Shown piece by piece: positions 3,492 through 38,095 of a stretch of 38,246 nucleotides of DNA. The position numbers were made by a program, and so were the translations under genes. The stretch's first letter is position 1, and every line of letters starts with the position of its first letter. Source of the stretch: Nitrospira sp. (GTDB taxonomy: Bacteria; Nitrospirota; Nitrospiria; Nitrospirales; Nitrospiraceae); contig JACOEL010000028.1 of assembly GCA_024998625.1 (NCBI GenBank), positions 1-38,246 on the forward strand, given 5' to 3'. The notes below the pieces were generated by a model. It was not told where the DNA came from. It ran no database searches and saw nothing but the letters and a program-made list of their open reading frames with translations.

Positions 3492-3518
3492 ATTCCGCAC
3501 AGTGTCATCGTGCGGAAT
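3492..3518. promoter_or_regulatory. palindromic enhancer (UAS) shared by two divergent sigma54 promoters
   Basis: A perfect inverted repeat: ATTCCGCAC, 9-bp spacer, GTGCGGAAT. It lies about 94 bp from the plus-strand -24 element (3599) and ~105 bp from the minus-strand one (3400), a normal range for sigma54 activators. It lies between divergent genes and has no T-run, so it is not a terminator. A close relative occurs at 4780-4805. Confidence 0.6.
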
Positions 3519-3597: not shown

Positions 3598-3613
3598 TGG
3601 CACTTCGCTTGCT
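3598..3613 (+). promoter_or_regulatory. sigma54 promoter for the CBS-domain gene
   Basis: TGGCAC-TTCGC-TTGCT is an exact match to the core TGGCAC-N5-TTGCW. The predicted start is near 3624, giving a ~120-base leader before the ATG at 3745. Confidence 0.75.
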
Positions 3614-3744: not shown

Positions 3745-4170
3745 ATGAGTCGTATAGGCATTCCAGCTGAAGGGTTCAAAACCGTCGGCCAAATAGTGGG
3801 AACGAATACGGTACAATTCCATGTCGGACAGGACGGCATGTCGATCACGATCGAGATGCTTTCCGAGCATGTATCCGGTGGACCGGTGTTGGATCAACAG
3901 GGCCGCTATGTGGGATTCATCAGCGAATTTGATATCCTCAAGGCCCTTGAGGCGGGAAAGGACTTGAACAGTCTGACGGCGACAGAACTGATGGCCAGAC
4001 ATCCCATTGCCGTCCGTAAATCGACACCGATACCAGACGCGATCAAGCTCATGGCAGACAACCACTTGTTGAACCTCCCGGTCGAGGAGAACGGAGAGGT
4101 GACCTATTCGGTGACCAGGCACGACCTGCTCCGCGCATCAATCGGTCTTGCCATAGGCATCGAAGAGTAG
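3745..4170 (+). CDS. CBS-domain pair protein
   Basis: A 141-residue protein. The ATG at 3745 is preceded by GAAAGGA at good spacing; the frame is open upstream but without an SD. It contains two CBS motifs: the first around MLSEHVSGGPVLDQQGRYVGFISEFDIL and the second around MARHPIAVRKSTPIPDAIKLMADNHLLNLPVEENGEVTYSVTRHDLL (residues ~90-135). CBS pairs bind adenine nucleotides and usually sense energy state. As a free-standing Bateman module it may bind and regulate a partner. Preceded by a sigma54 promoter and palindromic UAS, it is likely co-transcribed with the DUF488 gene 27 bp downstream. Confidence 0.85.
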   Translation: MSRIGIPAEGFKTVGQIVGTNTVQFHVGQDGMSITIEMLSEHVSGGPVLDQQGRYVGFISEFDILKALEAGKDLNSLTATELMARHPIAVRKSTPIPDAIKLMADNHLLNLPVEENGEVTYSVTRHDLLRASIGLAIGIEE

Positions 4171-4197: not shown

Positions 4198-4560
4198 ATG
4201 ATTCGAATCAAACGGGTTTACGAAACACCAAGCGCGCGCGATGGGATTCGGATTCTGGTCGACCGGATATGGCCGAGGGGGTGCACGAAGGGGCAGGCGC
4301 GTCTCGATGCATGGCGGAAGGAATTGGCTCCAAGCACGGCGCTCCGCACCTGGTTCGGCCATGACCCGGCAAAGTGGATGGAATTTCGGACACGTTACCG
4401 CAAAGAACTGAGCCGACCGGAACAGAATCGCGCGATCGAAGATCTCGCCCGGCTCGCACAAGGACAGACCGTCACATTACTCTATGGGGCATCCGACAAA
4501 GAACATAATCAAGCCGTGGTCCTGAAGGAATGCATCGACAGTGCGAAGGATCGCGTTTAG
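4198..4560 (+). CDS. DUF488 (YeaO-like) family protein
   Basis: A 120-residue cytoplasmic protein with family hallmarks: IKRVYETPS at the N-terminus, then DGIRILVDRIWPRG, WRKELAPSTALRTWFGHDP and the C-terminal TVTLLYGASDKEHNQAVVL. Length and motifs match YeaO-type DUF488 proteins, whose biochemical role is unknown. It starts 27 bp after the CBS gene. Its stop codon overlaps by two bases the stop of the minus-strand 33-residue gene, so the two genes converge. Confidence 0.85.
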   Translation: MIRIKRVYETPSARDGIRILVDRIWPRGCTKGQARLDAWRKELAPSTALRTWFGHDPAKWMEFRTRYRKELSRPEQNRAIEDLARLAQGQTVTLLYGASDKEHNQAVVLKECIDSAKDRV

Positions 4561-4658
4561 CTCGCCAACCCCCAGGTGCTCCAGAGAGCGACCGCGGCAA
4601 TCGCCAACATCACCCAGGCCAACTCACGATCTCCGACTTTCTTGATCATCCGTACCAT
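4557..4658 (-). CDS. 33-residue single-span membrane peptide
   Basis: A 33-residue ORF starting at an ATG at 4658 behind AAGGAGTTAG. It has a basic head (MVRMIKKVGDRE) and one hydrophobic helix (LAWVMLAIAAVALWSTWGL), typical of a small inner-membrane protein. No function is known. It has its own near-consensus sigma54 promoter 49-64 bp upstream and a palindromic UAS beyond that, matching the one that serves the CBS operon. The coding, SD and promoter elements in correct order make a chance ORF unlikely. From memory, similar RELAW-containing peptides occur in other Nitrospira. Confidence 0.65.
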   Translation of the reverse strand: MVRMIKKVGDRELAWVMLAIAAVALWSTWGLAS

Positions 4659-4706
4659 AGACTAACTCCTTGTTCCGTATGCGCTCACTGTGATGAACGT
4701 CTTCAA

Positions 4707-4722
4707 AGCAAGGGGCATGCCA
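4707..4722 (-). promoter_or_regulatory. sigma54 promoter for the 33-residue peptide
   Basis: On the minus strand TGGCATGCCCCTTGCT differs from TGGCAC-N5-TTGCW at one base and keeps GG-N10-GC. The predicted start is near 4697, about 39 bases before the ATG at 4658. Confidence 0.65.
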
Positions 4723-4779
4723 TTACTCATGAACGGAATTCCAATGGTTTCCATATTTCCCCACCCTCAAATCGAGCGA

Positions 4780-4805
4780 ATTCGCACGCCACGCACTGTG
4801 CGAAT
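4780..4805. promoter_or_regulatory. palindromic UAS upstream of the peptide gene
   Basis: Perfect 8-bp arms, ATTCGCAC, 10-bp spacer, GTGCGAAT. It is the same palindrome as 3492-3518 with one base fewer per arm, so the same activator probably binds both. It is centred ~72 bp upstream of the -24 GG at 4720-4721. A further GGAATTCC palindrome lies between them at 4735-4742. Confidence 0.55.
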
Positions 4806-10847: not shown

Positions 10848-10863
10848 TGCACCTCACATGCCA
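10848..10863 (-). promoter_or_regulatory. sigma54 -24/-12 candidate for nxrA1-nxrB1
   Basis: On the minus strand TGGCATGTGAGGTGCA keeps GG-N10-GC and TGGCA, with differences at the C of the -24 block and the first T of the -12 block. The predicted start is near 10837, giving a ~230-base leader. The CCACG palindrome array lies 93-143 bp upstream and a sigma54 activator gene is next door. Confidence 0.5.
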
Positions 10864-10954: not shown

Positions 10955-11004
10955 CCACGAATACACGTGGTGGAATACCACGATTCCACCACGATCAATC
11001 GTGG
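10955..11004. promoter_or_regulatory. CCACG/CGTGG palindrome array upstream of nxrA1 (putative UAS)
   Basis: Within 50 bp there are overlapping perfect dyads: CCACG-N6-CGTGG (10955-10970), CGTGG-N7-CCACG (10966-10982), an 11-bp-arm repeat CGTGGTGGAAT...ATTCCACCACG (10966-10976 with 10983-10993), and CCACGAT-CA-ATCGTGG (10989-11004). Such clustering is typical of cooperative binding by an AAA+ activator. It starts 93 bp upstream of the -24 element. Confidence 0.6.
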
Positions 11005-11052: not shown

Positions 11053-12573
11053 TTACCTGCGGGAGGGACGGCGAATGGCTAATTTCTGCATCCGGCTGCG
11101 GAGCGTGCTCGGCGCCAACCCTAACTGGTCTGCAGCGCCGCCGGGTCCTTCGATCCGCCAGTCGAGCAAGGTGAGGGTTTGAAGAATATGGTGTCGCTCT
11201 TCGTCATGCAATGTTCGTCGAGGGCCTGACTCGGGTGGGACGCGCACATTCACCATCGCCGGATCGATACGCAACAAGCGCTCGTGACACAGGATCAACG
11301 CACGTTCTACGATGTTCTCAAGCTCCCGCACATTTCCCGGCCAGGCATATTGCACCAACCGCTCCATCGACGGCCCATCGAAGTCTTCACACTGTCGCTT
11401 CAGCCGCTGCGAATGAACCCGCAGGAAATGTCGGGCGAGGATGGGAATGTCCTCCGGGCGTTCCCTGAGCGGAGGCATATGGATGGGAAACACGTTCAAG
11501 CGGTAGTACAAATCGCTGCGGAAACGCCCCTGCTGGATCGCCCGGTGTAAATCGGCGTTCGTGGCGGCAATCACCCGGACATCGACCGGAATGGCATTCG
11601 CGCCGCCGACTCGATCGACCAGACCGTCCTGGAGCACCCGCAAGAGCTTGGCCTGCGCCTCAAGCGGCATCTCGCCGACCTCATCCAGAAACAACGTGCC
11701 GCCATCGGCAAGCTCGAACCGGCCGACCCGCTGATGTTCGGCGCCCGTAAAGGCGCCCCGCTCGTGGCCGAACAACTCGCTTTCAATCAATCCTGAGGGG
11801 AGCGCCGCGCAATTCAATCGCACAAAAGCCCGATCACGCCGCAAACTCCGCTCATGGATGGCACGCGCCAAGACCTCCTTGCCGGTTCCGGTCTCCCCGG
11901 TCACCATCACCGTGGCGCCCGTGGGAGCCGCCTGCCGGGCAAGCGTCAGCACCTGTTCGAATGCTTGGCTTCGCCCCACGACGATGCCGAAATCCTGATT
12001 AGCCTTCAGCTCCTCCGCCAAGTACACGTTTTCCCGCGCCAACTGTTCTTTCAAACGGGTGATTTCTTCGTAGGCGTTGACGTGAGCGATGGCGAAACCG
12101 ATCTGCGTGGCCACCTGCTGGAGAAAATCCACATCGGCCGGATCCGGAGGCCCCGCCTCGATACTGCCGATGTTCAGCGTTCCGAGACACGCTTCCTGGA
12201 CGACCATAGGAAGGTTGATCATGCGACCAAGCCCTTCCTGGAGATAACTCTCATCTTCGATAAACAGTCGCTCTCGCTGAAGGTGAGGGCGCACATGCAC
12301 CTGATGATGATCGTAGACCCACCCCACTGCGCTGTGCGCGCGAGGGATCATCACGTCGCTTCTGAGCACCACCTTCGGCAGATTCGTTTCCACCGCATAA
12401 AAACGAAACGCGTCCGACTTCATATCGTACACCGTAATCCCAGCCCGCTCCCACCGGATGACTTTCGTCAACTGATCCGTAACGGCACGAAACAGACTCT
12501 GCCGGTTGCGCTGAGAATTCAGCACATTGGTCACGGACAACAGGGTGCGATAGTTGAGCGCCGCGTTATGCAC
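11053..12573 (-). CDS. sigma54-dependent activator, GAF-AAA+-Fis (FhlA/NorR-like)
   Basis: A 506-residue enhancer-binding protein. Residues ~20-175 form a GAF sensor domain (from TDQLTKVIRWERAGI to TLNIGS and QQVATQIGFAIAHV). The AAA+ core has Walker A GETGTGKE starting at residue 226, the sigma54-contact loop ERGAFTGA, Walker B GTLFLDEVGE and the RFRSDLYYRLNVFPI sensor region. The C-terminus carries a Fis-type HTH (GAADQLGLAPSTLRSRM). There is no receiver domain, so a small ligand or redox signal rather than phosphorylation should control it. It starts with GTG behind GGAAGAAG; no ATG is available in frame. Its stop lies 50 bp from the palindrome array upstream of nxrA1, making it the prime candidate activator of that operon. 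Confidence 0.93.
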   Translation of the reverse strand: MHNAALNYRTLLSVTNVLNSQRNRQSLFRAVTDQLTKVIRWERAGITVYDMKSDAFRFYAVETNLPKVVLRSDVMIPRAHSAVGWVYDHHQVHVRPHLQRERLFIEDESYLQEGLGRMINLPMVVQEACLGTLNIGSIEAGPPDPADVDFLQQVATQIGFAIAHVNAYEEITRLKEQLARENVYLAEELKANQDFGIVVGRSQAFEQVLTLARQAAPTGATVMVTGETGTGKEVLARAIHERSLRRDRAFVRLNCAALPSGLIESELFGHERGAFTGAEHQRVGRFELADGGTLFLDEVGEMPLEAQAKLLRVLQDGLVDRVGGANAIPVDVRVIAATNADLHRAIQQGRFRSDLYYRLNVFPIHMPPLRERPEDIPILARHFLRVHSQRLKRQCEDFDGPSMERLVQYAWPGNVRELENIVERALILCHERLLRIDPAMVNVRVPPESGPRRTLHDEERHHILQTLTLLDWRIEGPGGAADQLGLAPSTLRSRMQKLAIRRPSRR

Positions 12574-17516: not shown

Positions 17517-18398
17517 TTAATACGAAGGAGAATAGCCGGGCTGATCGCCCCGGGCAGTCCCCGGTTGAGCCGGCACCGTTGCGGGAACGGATTGGGTCGC
17601 GGCCGGCGCACTCGTATGGTGCGCCCCATAGATCGCCAATCCCGTAAACAGCATGCCCCCGACCAGATTCCCTAAGGTCACCGGGATCTGGTTCCAGAGC
17701 CACCAGGTCGACACGCTGACATTGGCCCCCAGCAACATGCCGACGGGCACGAGAAACATGTTCACGACCGCATGCTCGAATCCTTGCGAAAAGAACAACA
17801 AGGTCGGCCCCCAGATCGCCAGAATTTTTCCAGAAAATGACGTCGACATGAACGCCGCCACCACCGCCAGGCTTACCATCCAGTTACAGAGCATCCCTTT
17901 GGTGAACGCCGCGAGGAGCCCGGCCGTGCCGTGTGACGCGTAATAGTTGGTTTTCGCTTCGGCGATCGCAATGAGTTTGGTCCCGACCGCAGTGATTTGC
18001 GCATCTCCTGCGGTGGTCAGAGCGATGGCAAACAGGCCTGCGTACAGGGTGCTGCCCAGCAGATTGCCCAGGAAGACCCAGCCCCAGTTCGCACAGACCT
18101 GCCGCAAACCCGCATTCTTTTGGCCGGCCACGGCAGCGCAGGGCAAGAGCGCGAAACTGCCCGTGATGATCTCGGCGCCAAGCAGAATCGCCAGCGCCAA
18201 TCCGAAGGGAAAGAGCAGACTGCCGAGAATCCAGTATCCGGTTTCAACGGCCACGGTGACCGCCATGCTGGTCCCAATCCCGAGATAGGCGCCAGCCAGC
18301 ATGCCGCGAAGCACCAACTGACGCGGCGGCAAACTCAGCTTCAGCGCGCCGCCGGCCAGCATACTGTCCACCACGCCGTATGGCTTCACATAGTCCAT
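17517..18398 (-). CDS. nirC: formate/nitrite transporter family channel (NirC-like)
   Basis: A 293-residue FNT-family channel. The ATG at 18398 has SD AAGGAGG; the longer frame upstream is not needed. It has six transmembrane helices with family signatures: the LLGAEIITGSFALLP segment, NWGWVFLGNLLGS, the FEHAVVNMF loop and WNQIPVTLGNLVGG. FNT channels move small monovalent anions such as formate or nitrite. In a nitrite oxidiser, nitrite exchange for assimilation or detoxification is the likely role. The C-terminal ~30 residues form a Pro/Ala/Thr-rich tail. It leads an operon with an efflux system and has a near-perfect sigma54 promoter 86-101 bp upstream. Confidence 0.93.
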   Translation of the reverse strand: MDYVKPYGVVDSMLAGGALKLSLPPRQLVLRGMLAGAYLGIGTSMAVTVAVETGYWILGSLLFPFGLALAILLGAEIITGSFALLPCAAVAGQKNAGLRQVCANWGWVFLGNLLGSTLYAGLFAIALTTAGDAQITAVGTKLIAIAEAKTNYYASHGTAGLLAAFTKGMLCNWMVSLAVVAAFMSTSFSGKILAIWGPTLLFFSQGFEHAVVNMFLVPVGMLLGANVSVSTWWLWNQIPVTLGNLVGGMLFTGLAIYGAHHTSAPAATQSVPATVPAQPGTARGDQPGYSPSY

Positions 18399-18483: not shown

Positions 18484-18499
18484 AGCAAGGCGCGTGCCG
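18484..18499 (-). promoter_or_regulatory. sigma54 promoter for the nirC-emrB-OMF-emrA operon
   Basis: On the minus strand CGGCACGCGCCTTGCT differs from TGGCAC-N5-TTGCW only at the first base and keeps GG-N10-GC. The predicted start is near 18474, 76 bases before the transporter ATG. The divergent NtrB/NtrC-like pair is the obvious regulator. Confidence 0.7.
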
Positions 18500-18592
18500 T
18501 AGCGTTTTTCATCCATCCGTACCGCTCTGAGACAGACGGGAAGAACGTTTCCTGCTGACCGGACCGGATCATCCGCCCCCTGGAGGAATTGC

Positions 18593-18691
18593 ATGAATAT
18601 GGGCGAGATCGCACAGGCGCACGGTGCGAAACCGCTCATTTCACATGCCGCCGCAGGAACTTCATGCGGAACAGGGACCGGCAGCCGCTGA
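18593..18691 (+). CDS. possible 32-residue ORF in the divergent intergenic region
   Basis: An ATG at 18593 follows GGAGG by six bases and opens 32 codons (MNMGEIAQAHGAKPLISH...). The peptide is not clearly membrane or DNA-binding. The region also holds CGCAC-G-GTGCG (18618-18628), a palindrome ~150 bp upstream of the transporter promoter, so the DNA may be regulatory rather than coding. Confidence 0.2.
   Translation: MNMGEIAQAHGAKPLISHAAAGTSCGTGTGSR
18618..18628. promoter_or_regulatory. palindrome upstream of the nirC promoter (possible UAS)
   Basis: CGCAC-G-GTGCG is a perfect 11-bp palindrome centred ~125 bp upstream of the -24 element. Two direct GC[A/G]CACAGAC 10-mers spaced 12 bp apart (18752-18761, 18764-18773) lie further up. 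Either could bind the adjacent NtrC-like regulator. Confidence 0.3.
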
Positions 18692-18802: not shown

Positions 18803-20758
18803 TTGAGTGACCTGCTCAGCAATCTGCCCATTGCCCGCAAGTTGTTTCTTGCGTCGGTGATTCCTGCGCTCACGGTTCTGCTCCTCAGCGTCCTGACCTA
18901 CCGCAGCGTCACGACGTTCTCCGACGACGAGGGCCAGCTCAATGACATCTACTACTCCCAGCGATTGGCCTCGGAGTACCTTCGGCTTGTCGTGGACCTT
19001 GAAACAGGGTTCCGTGGTTTCGTCCTTACGAGCCAGGAGCATTATCTGTTCCCCTACCGAACCGCCCAGGATCATGTGCTGAACATCGGTAGGACGCTGG
19101 AAGCGCAGGTCTCCGCCTATGACGATCAACGCGCGCTGATCACCTCCGTTCAACAACTCGTCCGGCAGTTCATCGATGAAAAGGAAATCTTGATCGACGC
19201 CGTGAAGGCGGAGCATCCCGACGAAGCGCGGCTCTACATCGAGGAGGGTAAAGGGCGGACGCTGATGTTGAAGATTCGCCAGGACATGGGGCGCTTCGAA
19301 CATCTCGCCCAGACGGCACTCAATACCAAGCTCGCGAAACTCGCCCAGGATCGCGACACCATGCTCATGACCATCCTCGGCGGCGGCCTCTTCGCGTTGA
19401 TCTGCATGGTGGCAGCCTTGCACCTCATCGCCCACTCCATCACGACGCCGCTGGAGCGCCTGGCCACCGCAGTGATGGCGGCCGATACGCATCCGATCCC
19501 GCACGTCCCGGTGATGACAAGAACGGATGAAATCGGCAATCTGTCCCGTGTCATGCACGCCATGAGCTCGGCCATCCATTCCCACATTGCGGCGCTGCAA
19601 CTGTCGGAAGCCAACCTGCGCCAGCTCAACCAGGATCTGGCCGGTTCGGAAGCCAAGTATCGCAGTATCGTCGACCATGCGCCCTTCGGGATCTTCACCA
19701 CCAGAGGGATGACCCTCGTGTTCAGCAATCGATACAACAGCCTCCTCGCGGGACTCGACCCGAGCGAAGAGAAGGACCCCGATGCAGTCCGGCGCGCGAT
19801 CCACCCGGAAGACCGGGAGCGGGTCATCGAGGAATTCGCCCAGGCGGTAACGGAAGGACAGCCCTACGAAACGGTCTTCCGGTTTCTCCATGCGGACGGC
19901 ACGGTCAGAAAAGTCTTAAGCCGGCGCATCCCGATTCGCGATCATTCCGGAGAGGTCGTCATGTACCAGGGGTTCAACGTGGACATCACGGCCCTCGATC
20001 TCATGCAATCGCGACTGCGGCGGGCCGAACGACTGGCCACTCTCGGGCAGGTGGCCGCCGGCATCGCGCACGAAATCAGAAACCCGCTCGTCGGCATCGG
20101 CTCGACCACGTCCCTCTTGCTCGACGATACTGATCCAGCCGATGCGCGCCGCCCCGATCTGGCCGTCATTCTGCAGGAGACCAAACGCCTCGATCGGATC
20201 GTCAACCAAATCATCGACTATGCCCGACCCCGTGAGATCGTGGCGTTTGCCTTCGACATGGGACAGCTGGTGCAAGAAGTCATGAAGGTCTTGGATGAGC
20301 CGCTCACGCGCAAACAGGTGACGATCCGTCTCGCGGCGCCCGACGCCCCCTACACCATTCAGGCCGATCGCGATCAACTGAAACAAGTGCTGCTCAACGT
20401 CCTGCAGAACGCGATCGAAGCCAGCCCGTCCGACGGGACGATTACCGTCACCCTGGTTCAGCAGGCCCGCGGAATGGAGCCGGGACTGGAAATCACAGTC
20501 GCAGACCGGGGCACCGGGATCAGCCCCAGCCACCTCCCGCACGTGTTCGAACCGTTTTTCACGAGCGGCAAACCACGGGGAACAGGATTAGGACTTGCCA
20601 TCTGCCGTAACATTCTCGAAGCCCACGGCGGAGAAATTGCCTTGGACAGTGAAGTGGGACGCGGCACCACCGTGCGCGTCTGGGCCCCCGTACGACAACA
20701 GCCACCACGAATGCAGGAAGAGGAACAGCATGCAGGCCACGATCTACGTCACGGATGA
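18803..20758 (+). CDS. sensor histidine kinase, CHASE3-HAMP-PAS-HisKA-HATPase
   Basis: A 651-residue NtrB-type kinase. It starts with TTG at 18803; no in-frame ATG is usable before the first transmembrane helix (FLASVIPALTVLLLSVL). Domains in order: CHASE3 (~residues 40-185, VDLETGFRGFVLTSQEHYLFPY), second transmembrane helix and HAMP (TTPLERLATAVM), PAS (~285-400, with HPEDRERVIEE), HisKA with phospho-acceptor His423 in AAGIAHEIRNPL, and an HATPase domain (QVLLNVLQNAIEA, DRGTGISP, GTGLGLAI). It overlaps the response regulator by 29 bp, so the two are a cognate pair. It is divergent from the nitrite-transporter operon, its probable target. Confidence 0.93.
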   Translation: MSDLLSNLPIARKLFLASVIPALTVLLLSVLTYRSVTTFSDDEGQLNDIYYSQRLASEYLRLVVDLETGFRGFVLTSQEHYLFPYRTAQDHVLNIGRTLEAQVSAYDDQRALITSVQQLVRQFIDEKEILIDAVKAEHPDEARLYIEEGKGRTLMLKIRQDMGRFEHLAQTALNTKLAKLAQDRDTMLMTILGGGLFALICMVAALHLIAHSITTPLERLATAVMAADTHPIPHVPVMTRTDEIGNLSRVMHAMSSAIHSHIAALQLSEANLRQLNQDLAGSEAKYRSIVDHAPFGIFTTRGMTLVFSNRYNSLLAGLDPSEEKDPDAVRRAIHPEDRERVIEEFAQAVTEGQPYETVFRFLHADGTVRKVLSRRIPIRDHSGEVVMYQGFNVDITALDLMQSRLRRAERLATLGQVAAGIAHEIRNPLVGIGSTTSLLLDDTDPADARRPDLAVILQETKRLDRIVNQIIDYARPREIVAFAFDMGQLVQEVMKVLDEPLTRKQVTIRLAAPDAPYTIQADRDQLKQVLLNVLQNAIEASPSDGTITVTLVQQARGMEPGLEITVADRGTGISPSHLPHVFEPFFTSGKPRGTGLGLAICRNILEAHGGEIALDSEVGRGTTVRVWAPVRQQPPRMQEEEQHAGHDLRHG

Positions 20759-22121
20759 CGAACCAGCCATTCGATCCGCTATCGTCAAACGCCTTTCGCG
20801 GCGCCACCACACCGTGACCGGCTTCGAATCGGGCGAGGATCTGATCCGGGCCGTCACCCAACATCCGCCGGACCTCATCCTGCTGGACTTAAAGATGCCC
20901 GGCATGGGAGGCATCGACACACTCCGGCAGCTCCGACCGATCGCGCCCCAGACGCTGATCATCATGCTGACGGCCTATGGCACCGTGGAAGATGCGGTCG
21001 AAGCGATGCGGCTGGGCGCCTACGATTTCCTGATCAAGTCGGTCGACCTCTCAGGGGTCGACCCTGTCGTCGATCGTGCGATCGAATTCCTCGCCCTGCG
21101 CCATCGGGTCGAATTTTCGCTCGAAGACCAGAACAGCGCGTACGCGCTCTCCAATATCGACGCGCGTAGTCCGGCGATGCAGCTCCTGCTCGGCCAGGTT
21201 CGGGATGTAGCGGAGAACGCCAAGTCCACCGTGCTACTCCAAGGCGAAACAGGTACCGGCAAGGAGTTCCTCGCGCGGGTCATTCATTGCAATAGCCCGC
21301 GCGCGTCCGGCCCCTTCATCGCGGTGAACTGCACGGCCATTCCGAAGGAGCTCTTTGAAAGCGAGCTGTTCGGACACGAGCGGGGCGCCTTCACCGGCGC
21401 GCATCAGCGCAAACGCGGGCTGCTGGAGAAGGCCGAAGGCGGCACGTTGTTTCTGGACGAAATCGGCGACCTGGACCCGGCCATGCAAGCGAAGCTGCTC
21501 CGCGTGCTGCAGGAACGCACCTTCAGGCGCGTGGGCGGCACGGAAGATCTCTCCGTGGACTTCCGCTTGATGACCGCCACCAATCGCGACCTCAAGAAGG
21601 ACACGGCGCGCGGGAGCTTCCGGGAAGATCTCTTCTTTCGCCTGAACGTGGTGACCTTCGAACTCCCGCCCCTACGCGTGCGCACAGAGGATATTCTCCC
21701 ACTGTCCATGCAAGCCATGCTGCGATTCGGCAAAGAGTTCGGCAAGGAGGTCGTCGACATCGAACCCGAGGCGCAAGAACTCCTTCAGCGATACAGCTAT
21801 CCGGGCAATATTCGCGAACTCCAGAACATCATCGAACGCGCCATGATTCTCTGCCACGACAAAACCTTGACCGCCGGCTGCCTCCCGCGCGAATTGCGCG
21901 AGCAGGCCCCGCACATCGCCGTGGCCATGGCGCAAGGCGAGCACCCCTCCCTTCGCATTGAGATGGTGCTGGGACAACAGACGCTGGCCGATATCGAGTC
22001 GGCCCTGATCGAGGAAGTCGTGCGCCTCTCGGATCACAACAAAACCCTGGCCGCCAAACACCTTGGATTGACGCGGTTCGCCCTGGACCGGCGCCTCAAG
22101 AAACAAATGGAACAGGACTGA
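20730..22121 (+). CDS. NtrC-family response regulator (REC-AAA+-Fis)
   Basis: A 463-residue sigma54 activator. The ATG at 20730 (SD AGAGGAA) overlaps the kinase gene. The receiver domain carries the DDE triad at its start and phospho-acceptor D53 in LILLDLKMPG. The AAA+ domain has Walker A GETGTGKE, the sigma54 loop ERGAFTGA, Walker B GTLFLDEIGD and the FREDLFFRLNVV region. The C-terminal Fis HTH is KTLAAKHLGLTRFALDRRL. Phosphorylated by the overlapping kinase, it should drive GG-N10-GC promoters, most simply the divergent nirC-efflux operon. Confidence 0.94.
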   Translation: MQATIYVTDDEPAIRSAIVKRLSRRHHTVTGFESGEDLIRAVTQHPPDLILLDLKMPGMGGIDTLRQLRPIAPQTLIIMLTAYGTVEDAVEAMRLGAYDFLIKSVDLSGVDPVVDRAIEFLALRHRVEFSLEDQNSAYALSNIDARSPAMQLLLGQVRDVAENAKSTVLLQGETGTGKEFLARVIHCNSPRASGPFIAVNCTAIPKELFESELFGHERGAFTGAHQRKRGLLEKAEGGTLFLDEIGDLDPAMQAKLLRVLQERTFRRVGGTEDLSVDFRLMTATNRDLKKDTARGSFREDLFFRLNVVTFELPPLRVRTEDILPLSMQAMLRFGKEFGKEVVDIEPEAQELLQRYSYPGNIRELQNIIERAMILCHDKTLTAGCLPRELREQAPHIAVAMAQGEHPSLRIEMVLGQQTLADIESALIEEVVRLSDHNKTLAAKHLGLTRFALDRRLKKQMEQD

Positions 22122-34550: not shown

Positions 34551-34628
34551 GAAAGGAGGTACCCCAGACTAGATTGCATCTAGGCGAGTGTAGTGAGGTT
34601 GTACGAACAGGTGCATGAGGGACTCATG
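34551..34628 (+). promoter_or_regulatory. nxrA2 leader: orphan SD and two hairpins
   Basis: GAAAGGAGGT (34551-34560) is a strong SD ~92 bases before the nxrA2 start with no gene behind it; a TTG at 34574 would open only 14 codons. Hairpins CTAGAT-TGC-ATCTAG (34569-34583) and CATGAG-GGA-CTCATG (34614-34628) follow. The real SD, AAGGAGGT, is at 34638-34645. The nxrA1 leader has the same plan. Confidence 0.35.
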
Positions 34629-34651
34629 TGCCTCACAAGGAGGTAGCTATT

Positions 34652-37600
34652 ATGCAGGTTTCCGTTTCACGGAGACAGTTTCTCAAAATCTCGGCGGGAA
34701 CCGTTGCGGCCGTGGCCGTGGCGGATAAAGTCCTCGCGTTGACCGCGCTGCAGCCGGTCATCGAGGTTGGGAACCCGCTGGGTGAGTACCCGGATCGGTC
34801 CTGGGAGCGTGTGTATCACGACCAGTACCGATACGACTCATCCTTTACCTGGTGCTGCTCACCGAACGACACCCACGGCTGTCGCGTCCGCGCGTTCGTC
34901 CGAAACGGCGTCGTCATGCGCGTGGAGCAGAACTATGACCACCAAACCTATGAAGACCTCTACGGCAACCGCGGAACGTTCGCGCACAATCCGCGCATGT
35001 GCTTGAAAGGGTTCACCTTCCACCGTCGCGTGTACGGCCCCTATCGCTTGAAGGGTCCGTTGATGCGGAAAGGCTGGAAGCAGTGGATGGACGACGGCTC
35101 CCCCGAGCTGACGCCCGATGTGAAGCGCAAGTACAAGTTTGACAGCCGCTTCCTGGACGACCTCAACCGGGTGTCCTGGGATACGGCCTTCACCTATGTC
35201 GCCAAAGCCGCCGTGCTCATCGCGACGCGCTACAGCGGTGAAGCCGGTGCCCGTCGTCTCCGCGAGCAGGGCTATGCTCCGGAAATGATCGAAATGATGA
35301 AGGGTGCGGGCGTGCGGACGTTCAAGCATCGTGCCGGTATGCCGGTGCTCGGCATCGTCGGTAAGATGATGAACACCCGCTTCAACGGCGGATGTCTGCC
35401 GTTGCTGGACTCATGGATCCGCAAAGTCGATGCCGAAAAGGCGCAGGGCGGAAAGTACTATTCCAACTACACCTGGCACGGCGACCAAGATCCTTCCCAT
35501 CCGTTCTGGAATGGGACCCAGAACTGCGACGTCGACCTCTCCGACATGCGCTTCTCCAAGCTGAACACCAGCTGGGGTAAGAACTTCGTCGAGAACAAGA
35601 TGCCGGAAGCGCACTGGAAGCTCGAGTCCATCGAGCGCGGCGCACGGATCGTCGTCATTACGCCGGAATACAACCCAACGGCCTACCGCGCAGACTATTG
35701 GATTCCTCTGCGGCCGGAAACCGACGGTGCGAACTTCCTCGGCGCTGCAAAGATCATCTTCGATGAGAATTTGCAGGACATCGATTACATCAAGGAATTT
35801 ACCGACCTGCCGTTACTCATTCGGACGGATACCCTCCAGTATCTTGATCCGCGCGATGTGATTGCGGACTACAAGTTCCCGGATTTCTCCAAGAGCTATT
35901 CGGGACGCATCCAGTCCTTGAAGCCCGAGCAGGTCGAACGGCTCGGCGGCATGATGGTCTGGGACCAGGCGAAGAACCAAGCAGTTCCTCTGCACCGGGA
36001 ACAGGTCGGCTTCCACTTCAAGGAAAGCGGCATCGATGCAGCATTGACCGGTACCCACCGGGTGAAGCTACTCAACGGTCGTGAAATTGACGTGATGCCG
36101 CTTTATCAGATGTACCAGGTGCACCTCCAGGACTACGACCTGGATACAGTTCACCAGATCACCCGGGCGCCGAAGGACCTCATCGTCCGATGGGCGCGCG
36201 ATTCGGGCACGATCAAGCCGGCCGCGATGCATAACGGCGAAGGCGTCTGTCACTATTTCCACATGACGGAAATGGGTCGGGCGGCGGCGTTCATTATGAC
36301 CATCACCGGCAACATCGGAAAGTTCGGCACGGGCTGCCATACCTGGTCCGGTAACTACAAGGCCGGTATCTGGAACGCTGTGCCATGGTCCGGTGCGGGC
36401 CTCGCGGTACATACCGGTGAGGATCCGTTCAACCTGACCTTGGATCCAAACGCCCACGGCAAAGAGATCAAGACCCGTTCCTATTACTATGGTGAGGAAG
36501 TCGGTTACTGGAACCATGGTGATACGGCCTTGATCGTCAACACGCCGAAGTACGGTCGCAAGGTGTTCACCGGCAAGACCCACATGCCGAGCCCCAGCAA
36601 AGTCCGCTGGGTGACCAACGTGAACATTCTGAACAACGCCAAACACCACTATGACATGGTGAAAAACGTCGATCCGAACATCGAGATGATCGTCACGCAA
36701 GATATCGAGATGACCTCGGACGTCAACCATGCCGACGTGGCGTTTGCTTGCAACTCGTGGATGGAGTTCACCTATCCGGAAATGACTGGCACGGTCTCCA
36801 ATCCGTGGATTCAGATCTGGAAGGGCGGGATCCGTCCGTTGTACGACACCCGCAACGATGCGGACACCTTCGCCGGCGTCGCAGCCAAGTTGGCTGAAAT
36901 GACCGGAGATGCGCGCTTCCGCGGCGTGTTCCACTTCGTGTACATGAACCGCGTCGATGTTTATCCGCAGCGGATGCTGGATGCCAGCGCCACCTGCTAC
37001 GGGTACAGCGCTGACGTCATGTTGAAGTCGGAAAAGGGCTGGATGGTCATGGGACGCACCTATCCGCGCCACCCGCTCTGGGAAGAGACCAACGAGTCCA
37101 AGCCCCAGTGGACGCGGTCGGGTCGGATCGAGACCTACCGGATCGAGCCGGAAGCCATTGAATACGGCGAAAACTTCATCTCCCACCGGGAAGGCCCGGA
37201 GTGTACGCCGTATCTGCCGAATGCGATTTTCTCGAACAATCCGTTCATTCGGCCGGATGACTACGGAATTCCGATTACCGCGCAGCACCATGATGACAAG
37301 CATGTGCGGAACATCAGACTACCGTGGGCGGAAATCAAGCGGCATCCGAACCCGTTGTGGGAGAAGGGCTACCAGTTCTACTGCGTGACGCCCAAGACCC
37401 GCCACCGGGTGCACAGCCAATGGTCGGTGAACGACTGGGTGCAGATTTATGAGTCGAACTTCGGCGATCCGTACCGGATGGACAAACGGACACCGGGGGT
37501 CGGCGAGCACCAGTTGCACATCAACCCGCAGGCGGCGAAAGACCGTGGCATCAACGACGGCGACTACGTCTTTGTCGACGGTAACCCGGTGGACCGGCCC

Positions 37601-38095
37601 TATCGTGGCTGGAAACCGTCGGATCCGTTCTACAAGGTCGCCCGCTTGATGATCCGGGCGAAGTATAACCCTGCATATCCGTACCACGTGACGATGGCGA
37701 AGCACGCTCCGTACGTGGCGACGGCGAAATCGGTGAAGGGCCACGAGACGCGGCCAGACGGACGCGCCATCGCGGTGGACACCGGCTATCAGTCCAACTT
37801 CCGGTATGGGGCGCAACAGTCCTTTACCCGGAACTGGCTGATGCCGATGCACCAGACCGACTCGCTCCCTGGCAAACACACGATTGCCTGGAAGTTCAAG
37901 TGGGGCTATGCCATCGATCACCATGGCATCAACACCGTTCCGAAGGAATGCTTGATCCGCATCACCAAGGCGGAAGACGGCGGTATCGGAGCGCGTGGTC
38001 CGTGGGAACCAGTCCGGACCGGGTTCACGCCGGGTCAGGAAAACGAGTTCATGATCAAGTGGCTTAAAGGTGAACATATCAAGATCAAGGTCTAG
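34652..38095 (+). CDS. nxrA: nitrite oxidoreductase alpha (catalytic) subunit, copy 2
   Basis: A 1147-residue paralogue of the minus-strand NxrA. The ATG at 34652 follows AAGGAGGT at seven bases; the longer frame from 34628 lacks an SD. It has a Tat signal (SRRQFLKIS), Cys69, Cys77 (CSPNDTHGC, preceded by an extra Cys68) and Cys117 (MCLKG) for FS0, and YTWHGDQDP for the Mo region. By eye it is nearly colinear with copy 1; differences cluster in the first 300 residues and around residues 390-480, and the last ~250 residues are almost identical. Third-position differences are common even where the protein is identical, so the nxrA copies are not being homogenised like nxrB. It is followed by nxrB2 after 108 bp. 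Confidence 0.97.
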   Translation: MQVSVSRRQFLKISAGTVAAVAVADKVLALTALQPVIEVGNPLGEYPDRSWERVYHDQYRYDSSFTWCCSPNDTHGCRVRAFVRNGVVMRVEQNYDHQTYEDLYGNRGTFAHNPRMCLKGFTFHRRVYGPYRLKGPLMRKGWKQWMDDGSPELTPDVKRKYKFDSRFLDDLNRVSWDTAFTYVAKAAVLIATRYSGEAGARRLREQGYAPEMIEMMKGAGVRTFKHRAGMPVLGIVGKMMNTRFNGGCLPLLDSWIRKVDAEKAQGGKYYSNYTWHGDQDPSHPFWNGTQNCDVDLSDMRFSKLNTSWGKNFVENKMPEAHWKLESIERGARIVVITPEYNPTAYRADYWIPLRPETDGANFLGAAKIIFDENLQDIDYIKEFTDLPLLIRTDTLQYLDPRDVIADYKFPDFSKSYSGRIQSLKPEQVERLGGMMVWDQAKNQAVPLHREQVGFHFKESGIDAALTGTHRVKLLNGREIDVMPLYQMYQVHLQDYDLDTVHQITRAPKDLIVRWARDSGTIKPAAMHNGEGVCHYFHMTEMGRAAAFIMTITGNIGKFGTGCHTWSGNYKAGIWNAVPWSGAGLAVHTGEDPFNLTLDPNAHGKEIKTRSYYYGEEVGYWNHGDTALIVNTPKYGRKVFTGKTHMPSPSKVRWVTNVNILNNAKHHYDMVKNVDPNIEMIVTQDIEMTSDVNHADVAFACNSWMEFTYPEMTGTVSNPWIQIWKGGIRPLYDTRNDADTFAGVAAKLAEMTGDARFRGVFHFVYMNRVDVYPQRMLDASATCYGYSADVMLKSEKGWMVMGRTYPRHPLWEETNESKPQWTRSGRIETYRIEPEAIEYGENFISHREGPECTPYLPNAIFSNNPFIRPDDYGIPITAQHHDDKHVRNIRLPWAEIKRHPNPLWEKGYQFYCVTPKTRHRVHSQWSVNDWVQIYESNFGDPYRMDKRTPGVGEHQLHINPQAAKDRGINDGDYVFVDGNPVDRPYRGWKPSDPFYKVARLMIRAKYNPAYPYHVTMAKHAPYVATAKSVKGHETRPDGRAIAVDTGYQSNFRYGAQQSFTRNWLMPMHQTDSLPGKHTIAWKFKWGYAIDHHGINTVPKECLIRITKAEDGGIGARGPWEPVRTGFTPGQENEFMIKWLKGEHIKIKV

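Follow-up and report, generated by a model that had tools for sequence, protein, structure and literature searches.

In the genus Nitrospira, a major group of the nitrite oxidizers that convert nitrite into nitrate, a conserved gene for a 33-residue protein is almost certainly present, and it very probably carries a sigma54 promoter with an activator site of its own. The gene lies in the window, that is, the whole 38,246-nucleotide stretch of DNA analyzed here (contig C28 of a 37-contig assembly). As read from the DNA, a putative unit of site and promoter is common to the small ORF, a NirC-like gene and a CBS gene. The main reading, which is given a probability of roughly 0.4, is that the product may be an accessory of a membrane protein of this regulon, made under the same sigma54 and activator control.

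The small gene and its conservation

A preliminary description of the window had pointed to a tiny ORF with a Shine-Dalgarno sequence, a basic head and one hydrophobic helix. All of these were located on the minus strand, where it had placed them.

4557-4559 (stop) and 4560-4658 (coding), minus strand: small ORF, 33 aa, MVRMIKKVGDRELAWVMLAIAAVALWSTWGLAS, basic N-terminus and one hydrophobic helix
4671-4666, minus strand: Shine-Dalgarno sequence AAGGAG, 7 nt 5' of the small-ORF ATG

A peptide search at E values up to 10 gave matches in 30 of 61 genomes (own genome included), 26 of them at E ≤2e-10, and none contained an internal stop. A profile search of the order matched 54 of 235 genomes at E up to 0.1, weak matches included; in addition to the genus genomes, 14 genomes of other genera carried the ORF at E<1e-7. 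Some of the compared genomes are fragmented. Scanning of genome contigs with a degenerate peptide pattern yielded 16 stretches, of which 14 are labeled Nitrospira or Nitrospiraceae, one Nitrosospira and one Planctomycetes (L095). The peptide of L095 diverges past the pattern and this locus was rejected as a chance match; a match in G171 was also rejected as a homologue. The peptide of Ca. Nitrospira defluvii (FP929003.1, L101) is identical to the 33-mer of the window.

Nine residues, M1, G9, D10, R11, E12, W15, L18, A19 and W26, are invariant in 16 aligned peptides, and two weak homologues found later deviate at some of them. Within the genus, residue conservation reaches almost to the stop codon. 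Stand-alone homologues are 32-48 aa long, and the weaker ones about 29-33 aa, with uncertain starts. The peptide belongs to no Pfam family at E 0.01 and no NCBIfam family at E 1. Its profile search of PDB chains returned a single match, a designed protein at E 1.6, and its comparison to PHROGs two weak matches, the best at E 0.029.

For 25 distinct genus sequences, pN/pS was 0.14 in the frame of the small ORF, compared to 1.39 and 2.86 in the other forward frames and 1.46, 0.34 and 4.89 in the antisense frames. The antisense frame with the ratio of 0.34 is free of stops in all 25 sequences; it has the same codon periodicity and scores worse than the small ORF. Across several genera (35 sequences) the ratio was 0.25, whereas a first test that included L095, dropped from the second, had given 0.29. 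Variable columns at codon positions 1, 2 and 3 numbered 13, 7 and 28 in the genus, the third position varying most. By this substitution pattern the small ORF evolves as a protein and is under purifying selection. Refutation from sequence, through a homologous ORF that is absent or broken in relatives, failed: the ORF exists in 25 of the 29 genus genomes (own included, E<1e-7), its matches are free of stops, and selection is purifying. The idea of a real, co-regulated small membrane protein holds, at the level of sequence, for the gene, its conservation and its sigma54-type promoter.

Promoter and activator site

The following elements precede the small ORF and two further genes of the window.

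4722-4707, minus strand: sigma54-type -24/-12 element TGGCATGCCCCTTGCT, exact TGGCAY-N5-TTGCW, ending 48 nt before the small-ORF ATG
4774-4805, minus strand: putative activator site ATTCGCACAGTGCGTGGCGTGCGAATTCGCTC, including the palindrome ATTCGCAC-N10-GTGCGAAT at 4805-4780
3492-3518, plus strand: second site copy, ATTCCGCAC-N9-GTGCGGAAT, preceding the CBS gene
3598-3613, plus strand: sigma54-type promoter TGGCACTTCGCTTGCT of the CBS gene
3745-4170, plus strand: protein with two CBS stretches (PF00571, 2.6e-17)
18602-18635, no strand assigned: third site copy, between the NirC-like and histidine kinase genes
18484-18499, minus strand: sigma54-type promoter CGGCACGCGCCTTGCT of the NirC-like gene, 10/11
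17517-18398, minus strand: NirC-like channel of the formate/nitrite transporter family (PF01226, 1e-61)

The sigma54 promoter that had been proposed before the ORF proved to be a perfect -24/-12 element. The palindrome had been called a near copy of the one at 3492, and indeed the CGCAC/GTGCG core is common to both, the spacer at 3492 being one base shorter. In a genome-wide search with the suggested palindrome under equal spacing rules, ATTCNGCACN8-12GTGCNGAAT matched only the 3492 site of the own genome and missed the 4780 site because the arms of the latter have eight bases.

Chance can hardly be expected to supply these elements in such number. The strict pattern TGGCAYN5TTGCW occurs twice in the window, with 0.12 expected, and 1 of 100 shuffles reached 2. 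The extended site CGCACN9-10GTGCGN4CGC gave 4 strand matches at 3 places, with 0.03 expected, and 0 of 100 shuffles reached 4. The combined unit, defined as exact arms with a promoter of at least 10/11 located 60-160 bp downstream, was found 3 times in the window versus 0 in 200 first-order Markov simulations.

The same arrangement is seen in relatives, in which homologues were located by protein alone and the upstream DNA was scored afterwards. Upstream of the small-ORF homologue, 40 of 41 genomes have CGCAC and GTGCG arms without a mismatch, together with a promoter scoring 10/11 or 11/11. The distance between the starts of site and promoter in these 40 is 80 bp in 33 genomes, 82 in 3, 79 in 2 and 81 in 2; the scores in this table lean upward because the best site and promoter were chosen within a range of 61-90 bp. 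Both arms and the subsequent CGC are identical in 40 of 40 rows, and the consensus of the upstream site is CGCAC-A-GTGCG-N4-GTGCG-RA-NN-CGC-T-C. The exception, G065, was absent from the parse for the spacing table and was judged separately; no good site was found before its small ORF, and its promoter scores 9/11. The weaker homologues of G077 (promoter 10/11) and G082 (9/11) retain this layout. In G029, G074 and G078, the site lies about 140-145 bp from the promoter in reversed orientation, and the promoter reaches only 8/11.

Other genes behind the site

The third unit (18484-18635), before the NirC-like gene, lay outside the preliminary observation on the small ORF. The channel scores below the NCBIfam cut-offs for FocA and NirC. 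Site and promoter also precede the CBS gene in several relatives. When 36 chosen genomes were searched for the extended site, 134 strand matches were obtained versus 20 for the reversed control, both counts being tallies of the result table in which some places are counted on both strands. In relatives the unit stands before CBS, NirC-like and ModA-like binding protein genes, some loci having one arm mismatch or a 9/11 promoter. Less regular targets, named by eye from the sequence, are an RND pump, a SulP transporter, glycosyltransferase-like and other envelope-type genes. Many other site matches have no nearby promoter of at least 9/11. Among these is the fourth site of the own genome (G000:C10:9878-9904, L170), about 260 bp from a contig end, below which no such promoter was found. 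At L182, L084 and L085, a site with a promoter 80-81 bp below precedes a protein of 375-389 aa with a GGSTAF motif, possibly, as a guess by eye, an SGNH-type envelope enzyme.

Separate elements were observed upstream of nxrA.

10848-10863, minus strand: sigma54-type promoter TGGCATGTGAGGTGCA, about 254 bp upstream of nxrA
about 10966-10993, minus strand: inverted repeat of the type CGTGGTGG-N12-CCACCACG, about 385 bp upstream of nxrA

This promoter is conserved in 6 of 6 genus loci checked and scores 9/11 in G069. The repeat, perhaps a site of the adjacent GAF activator, is present in 5 of the 6 (G007 being a variant by eye), and none was found in G069. A second nxrA copy (34628-38095, plus strand) is 86% identical; a search of the 500 bp before it revealed no 9/11 promoter, and the 200-450 bp searched for the repeat contained none.

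The candidate activator

A candidate two-component system is encoded beside the third site.

18803-20758, plus strand: CHASE3-HAMP-PAS sensor histidine kinase (Pfam)
20727-22121, plus strand: NtrC-type response regulator, leading candidate for activating the three window promoters

The gene for the response regulator lies in linkage with that for its kinase and with NirC. Co-distribution and site position favor its product as the likeliest activator, and on these genome comparisons it is probably the binder of the palindromic site. An orthologue (at least 67%) was found in 36 of 36 tested genomes first counted with the ORF, as a fragment at a contig edge in G017. Four genomes reassigned as ORF carriers (G029, G082, G158, G179) also contain it, making 40 of 40. 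Among the 12 remaining genomes without a detected ORF, 6 possess the regulator: G024 (fragmented), G071, G080, G084, G086 and G135. The next-best matches are at most 53% over the full length, except for shorter copies of 55-63% beside the orthologue in G179, G135, G086, G080 and G084. The search covered 52 chosen genomes, with ORF carriers G002, G018, G028, G074, G077 and G078 outside it; because the genomes were chosen by the author and are related, no p-value is given for this co-distribution. Both G024 and G010 are counted among the 12 genomes without the ORF. The regulator of G024 is on a contig of 3.3 kb. In G010, neither ORF nor regulator was found, and NirC (with one in-frame stop), kinase and site are on a contig of 5.7 kb.

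The activators of three genomes were also compared. The own genome has 34 activator domains, G033 has 21 and G012 has 20, and those with a GAFTGA-type motif entered the comparison (27 of 34, 15 of 21 and 14 of 20). G033 has the sites, and G012 is without the ORF and has one site match with a non-consensus flank. Only two of the 27 own activators, the response regulator and the L210 activator, have a reciprocal best match of at least 65% in G033 but not in G012. The L210 activator (G000:C34:75686-77083) was rejected as binder because G008, a genome without any site match, has it at 92%. The L212 activator, with a reciprocal match of 53% in G033 and none in G012, was set aside by the 65% threshold alone. 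The GAF-AAA-Fis activator next to nxrA (11053-12573) was rejected as the palindrome binder because several site-bearing genomes are without a close orthologue: there was no match at E 1e-120 in G033 and G147, and the best matches in G013, G015 and G017 were 46-59%.

As for the kinase, a site lies within 250 bp upstream of its gene in 14 of 22 loci, and 12 of these 14 share that gap with NirC. In G071 and G158 the kinase has its own site and promoter. The remaining 8 of the 22 loci have no detected site up to 700 bp from the kinase.

Topology and fusion proteins

AlphaFold2 predicts the 33-mer as one helix from residue 2 to 32 (mean pLDDT 81.2, pTM 0.39), and its best 19-residue Kyte-Doolittle mean is 1.81. 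Some longer proteins carry a further domain.

L129:19143-19739 (G066), L186 (G179) and L135:18572-19105 (G071): BamE-like domain protein, apparently exported

The proteins of G066 (199 aa) and G179 (189 aa) begin with the GDRE segment and helix, which an Ala-X-Ala-like stretch joins to this domain, and both fusion genes stand behind the same kind of site and sigma54-type promoter unit. The homologous domain protein of G071 has a signal-peptide-like start and a near-identical promoter unit with one mismatch in a site arm. Its match to BamE (PF04355, E 0.004) stays below threshold, at 17.3 bits where the cut-off is 23.2; for the G066 fusion protein, no Pfam match was found at E 1. From the fusion features and the basic N-terminus, we infer by eye that the domain would lie on the exported side. 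An exported domain in G066 and G179 fits an N-in/C-out orientation, and the small protein would accordingly be a single-pass inner-membrane protein of that orientation. A separate BamE-like domain was rejected as a trans partner, since just three of 26 genomes have it (G066, G179 and G071).

Gene neighbors and NirC

Neighbors were recognized by comparison with window genes, to which one ModA-like protein was added, and 33 of 35 loci were parsed (not G065 and G158). The nearest recognized upstream gene is CHASE3 in 11 loci, HlyD in 7, ModA-like in 4 and SPFH in 2, with none within 2 kb in 9. Thus the neighbors vary, and no constant operon partner was found among the 33 loci. The HlyD gene is the end of a NirC-MFS-outer membrane-HlyD operon; it is nearest upstream in G013, G015, G017, G033, G093, G102 and G147, and likewise in G065 and G158. 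G158 carries in a row the kinase, the regulator, NirC, the exporter genes, the site and the small-ORF homologue. In the window, a stretch of activator, nxrAB and CHASE3 genes separates the small ORF from the NirC-exporter operon. The next downstream gene of the window is a convergent DUF488 gene, whose stop codon overlaps that of the small ORF (TTAG, 4557-4560); this pair abuts in G015 and G023 as well.

NirC orthologues (at least 68%, paralogues at most 42%) were found in 41 of the 46 genomes that carry the ORF, own genome included and G017 as a fragment, and in 1 of 12 without it (G010). The ORF is present and a NirC orthologue missing in G030, G066 and G082, which are 99-100% complete, and in G077 and G090, which are 81-87% complete; therefore NirC is not an obligate partner. 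Kinship confounds this co-distribution, as does joint loss of the linked cluster: G008 and G012 are without NirC and regulator together. The preliminary description had raised a possible regulator of a transporter or of the SPFH/lipoprotein complex; of these, co-distribution and the nearest upstream gene (HlyD in 7 of 33 loci, SPFH in 2) would favor an accessory role for the NirC transport module.

Proposed model and alternatives

In the proposed model, the CHASE3-PAS histidine kinase would phosphorylate the adjoining NtrC-type response regulator, which would bind sites of the type TTCGCAC-N9/10-GTGCGAA and drive sigma54 RNA polymerase at a set of promoters. These would serve the small gene, the NirC-like channel with its MFS/outer-membrane/HlyD exporter operon, and the CBS protein; by lineage, the set may extend to the ModA-like binding protein and other envelope genes. 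The small protein would insert N-in/C-out and serve some membrane protein from this regulon as accessory or modulator. Since the same kind of promoter unit also precedes a nitrite-channel gene, the protein probably does assist in membrane transport or signaling. Taken by itself, a role as accessory of some regulon membrane protein has nearly an even chance, and the NirC-exporter unit, though the foremost candidate for the partner, is less likely than not.

Other roles have to be weighed against this accessory role. The protein might contact the CHASE3 histidine kinase in the membrane and damp or sustain signaling, as feedback on its own sensor. This is unlikely, although it would agree with the presence of the site before the small ORF in all but one of the 41 genomes and with the regulator being found in every one of the 36 ORF genomes first tested, a tighter association than that of NirC; the regulator nevertheless persists in G071, G080, G084, G086 and G135, where the ORF was undetected. 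A role in nitrite oxidoreductase, as small subunit or assembly factor, comes to mind because the nxrAB-CHASE3 stretch is directly upstream; in 6 of 33 loci, the window included, nxrB ranks within the three closest recognized genes on that side. Yet the other 27 loci, several of them cut by contig ends, are without a nearby nxrB, so that linkage to nxrAB is not constant; two members of the same genus, G015 and G013, have the HlyD end of the NirC operon where the nxrAB-CHASE3 stretch would be, and nxrA itself has another sigma54-type promoter and another inverted repeat. Such a role is quite improbable.

The least probable explanation, to which we attach very little weight, takes the ORF as a leader peptide, a regulatory RNA or the 5' remnant of a longer exported protein. 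The segment does form the N-terminus of the long proteins of G066 and G179, the promoter unit of G071 precedes a signal-peptide-like version of the fusion domain, and a co-directional recognized gene follows at 383-1002 bp in 5 of 33 loci (G075, G081, G118, G119, G130). However, the next recognized gene is convergent in the window and 15 other loci, none being recognized in the remaining 12, and in the genus residues are conserved nearly to the stop, with the third codon position most variable.

Relation to known systems and significance

KdpF is a small single-helix accessory made together with its membrane machine. AcrZ (PMC7267776) and CydX (PMC4325964) are described as proteins of fewer than about 50 residues with one transmembrane helix, also made together with a membrane machine. 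The 33-mer resembles these three in having about 50 aa or fewer and one predicted transmembrane helix. It differs from them in that no sequence relation was found by Pfam, NCBIfam or PDB profile, and in having its own sigma54-type unit instead of a place in the operon of a partner.

The window system is similar to NtrC-type sigma54 regulons, with a -24/-12 promoter, a palindrome about 80-160 bp upstream, and a linked kinase and candidate activator. The present gene set agrees with the envelope theme described for sigma54 regulons by Francke et al. 2011 (PMC3162934). For Nitrospira, sigma54 and NifA-like regulators linked to nxr are described in PMC6606698, whose passages on them give no binding sites; the words "promoter" and "NirC" are absent from its main text. 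The GAF-AAA-Fis activator at 11053-12573 has the same locus neighborhood as these nxrAB-linked regulators. The system described here is unlike that activator, which has no close orthologue in several site-bearing genomes, and nxrA has a different repeat. NirC is treated as a nitrite transporter and possible cyanate importer in PMC12342949. The small peptide, the palindromic site and its Nitrospiraceae gene set were absent, by title and beginning of abstract, from open-licence papers among the matches listed.

GDRE peptides occur as stand-alone proteins and also, in a BamE-like protein that looks exported, as its membrane segment; the small protein could thus be half of an envelope device. Speculatively, and against the odds, these peptides could represent an undescribed, dedicated membrane modulator of the nitrite-channel/exporter regulon of Nitrospira-type nitrifiers, the membrane half of a device for envelope sensing or assembly. 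What is gained is a sequence-defined sigma54-type site, a short list of targets including a formate/nitrite channel, and a candidate two-component system. The conserved 33-aa membrane protein is the most regularly spaced target seen, and through it an orphan family joins the handful of small membrane proteins whose regulatory context can be recognized.
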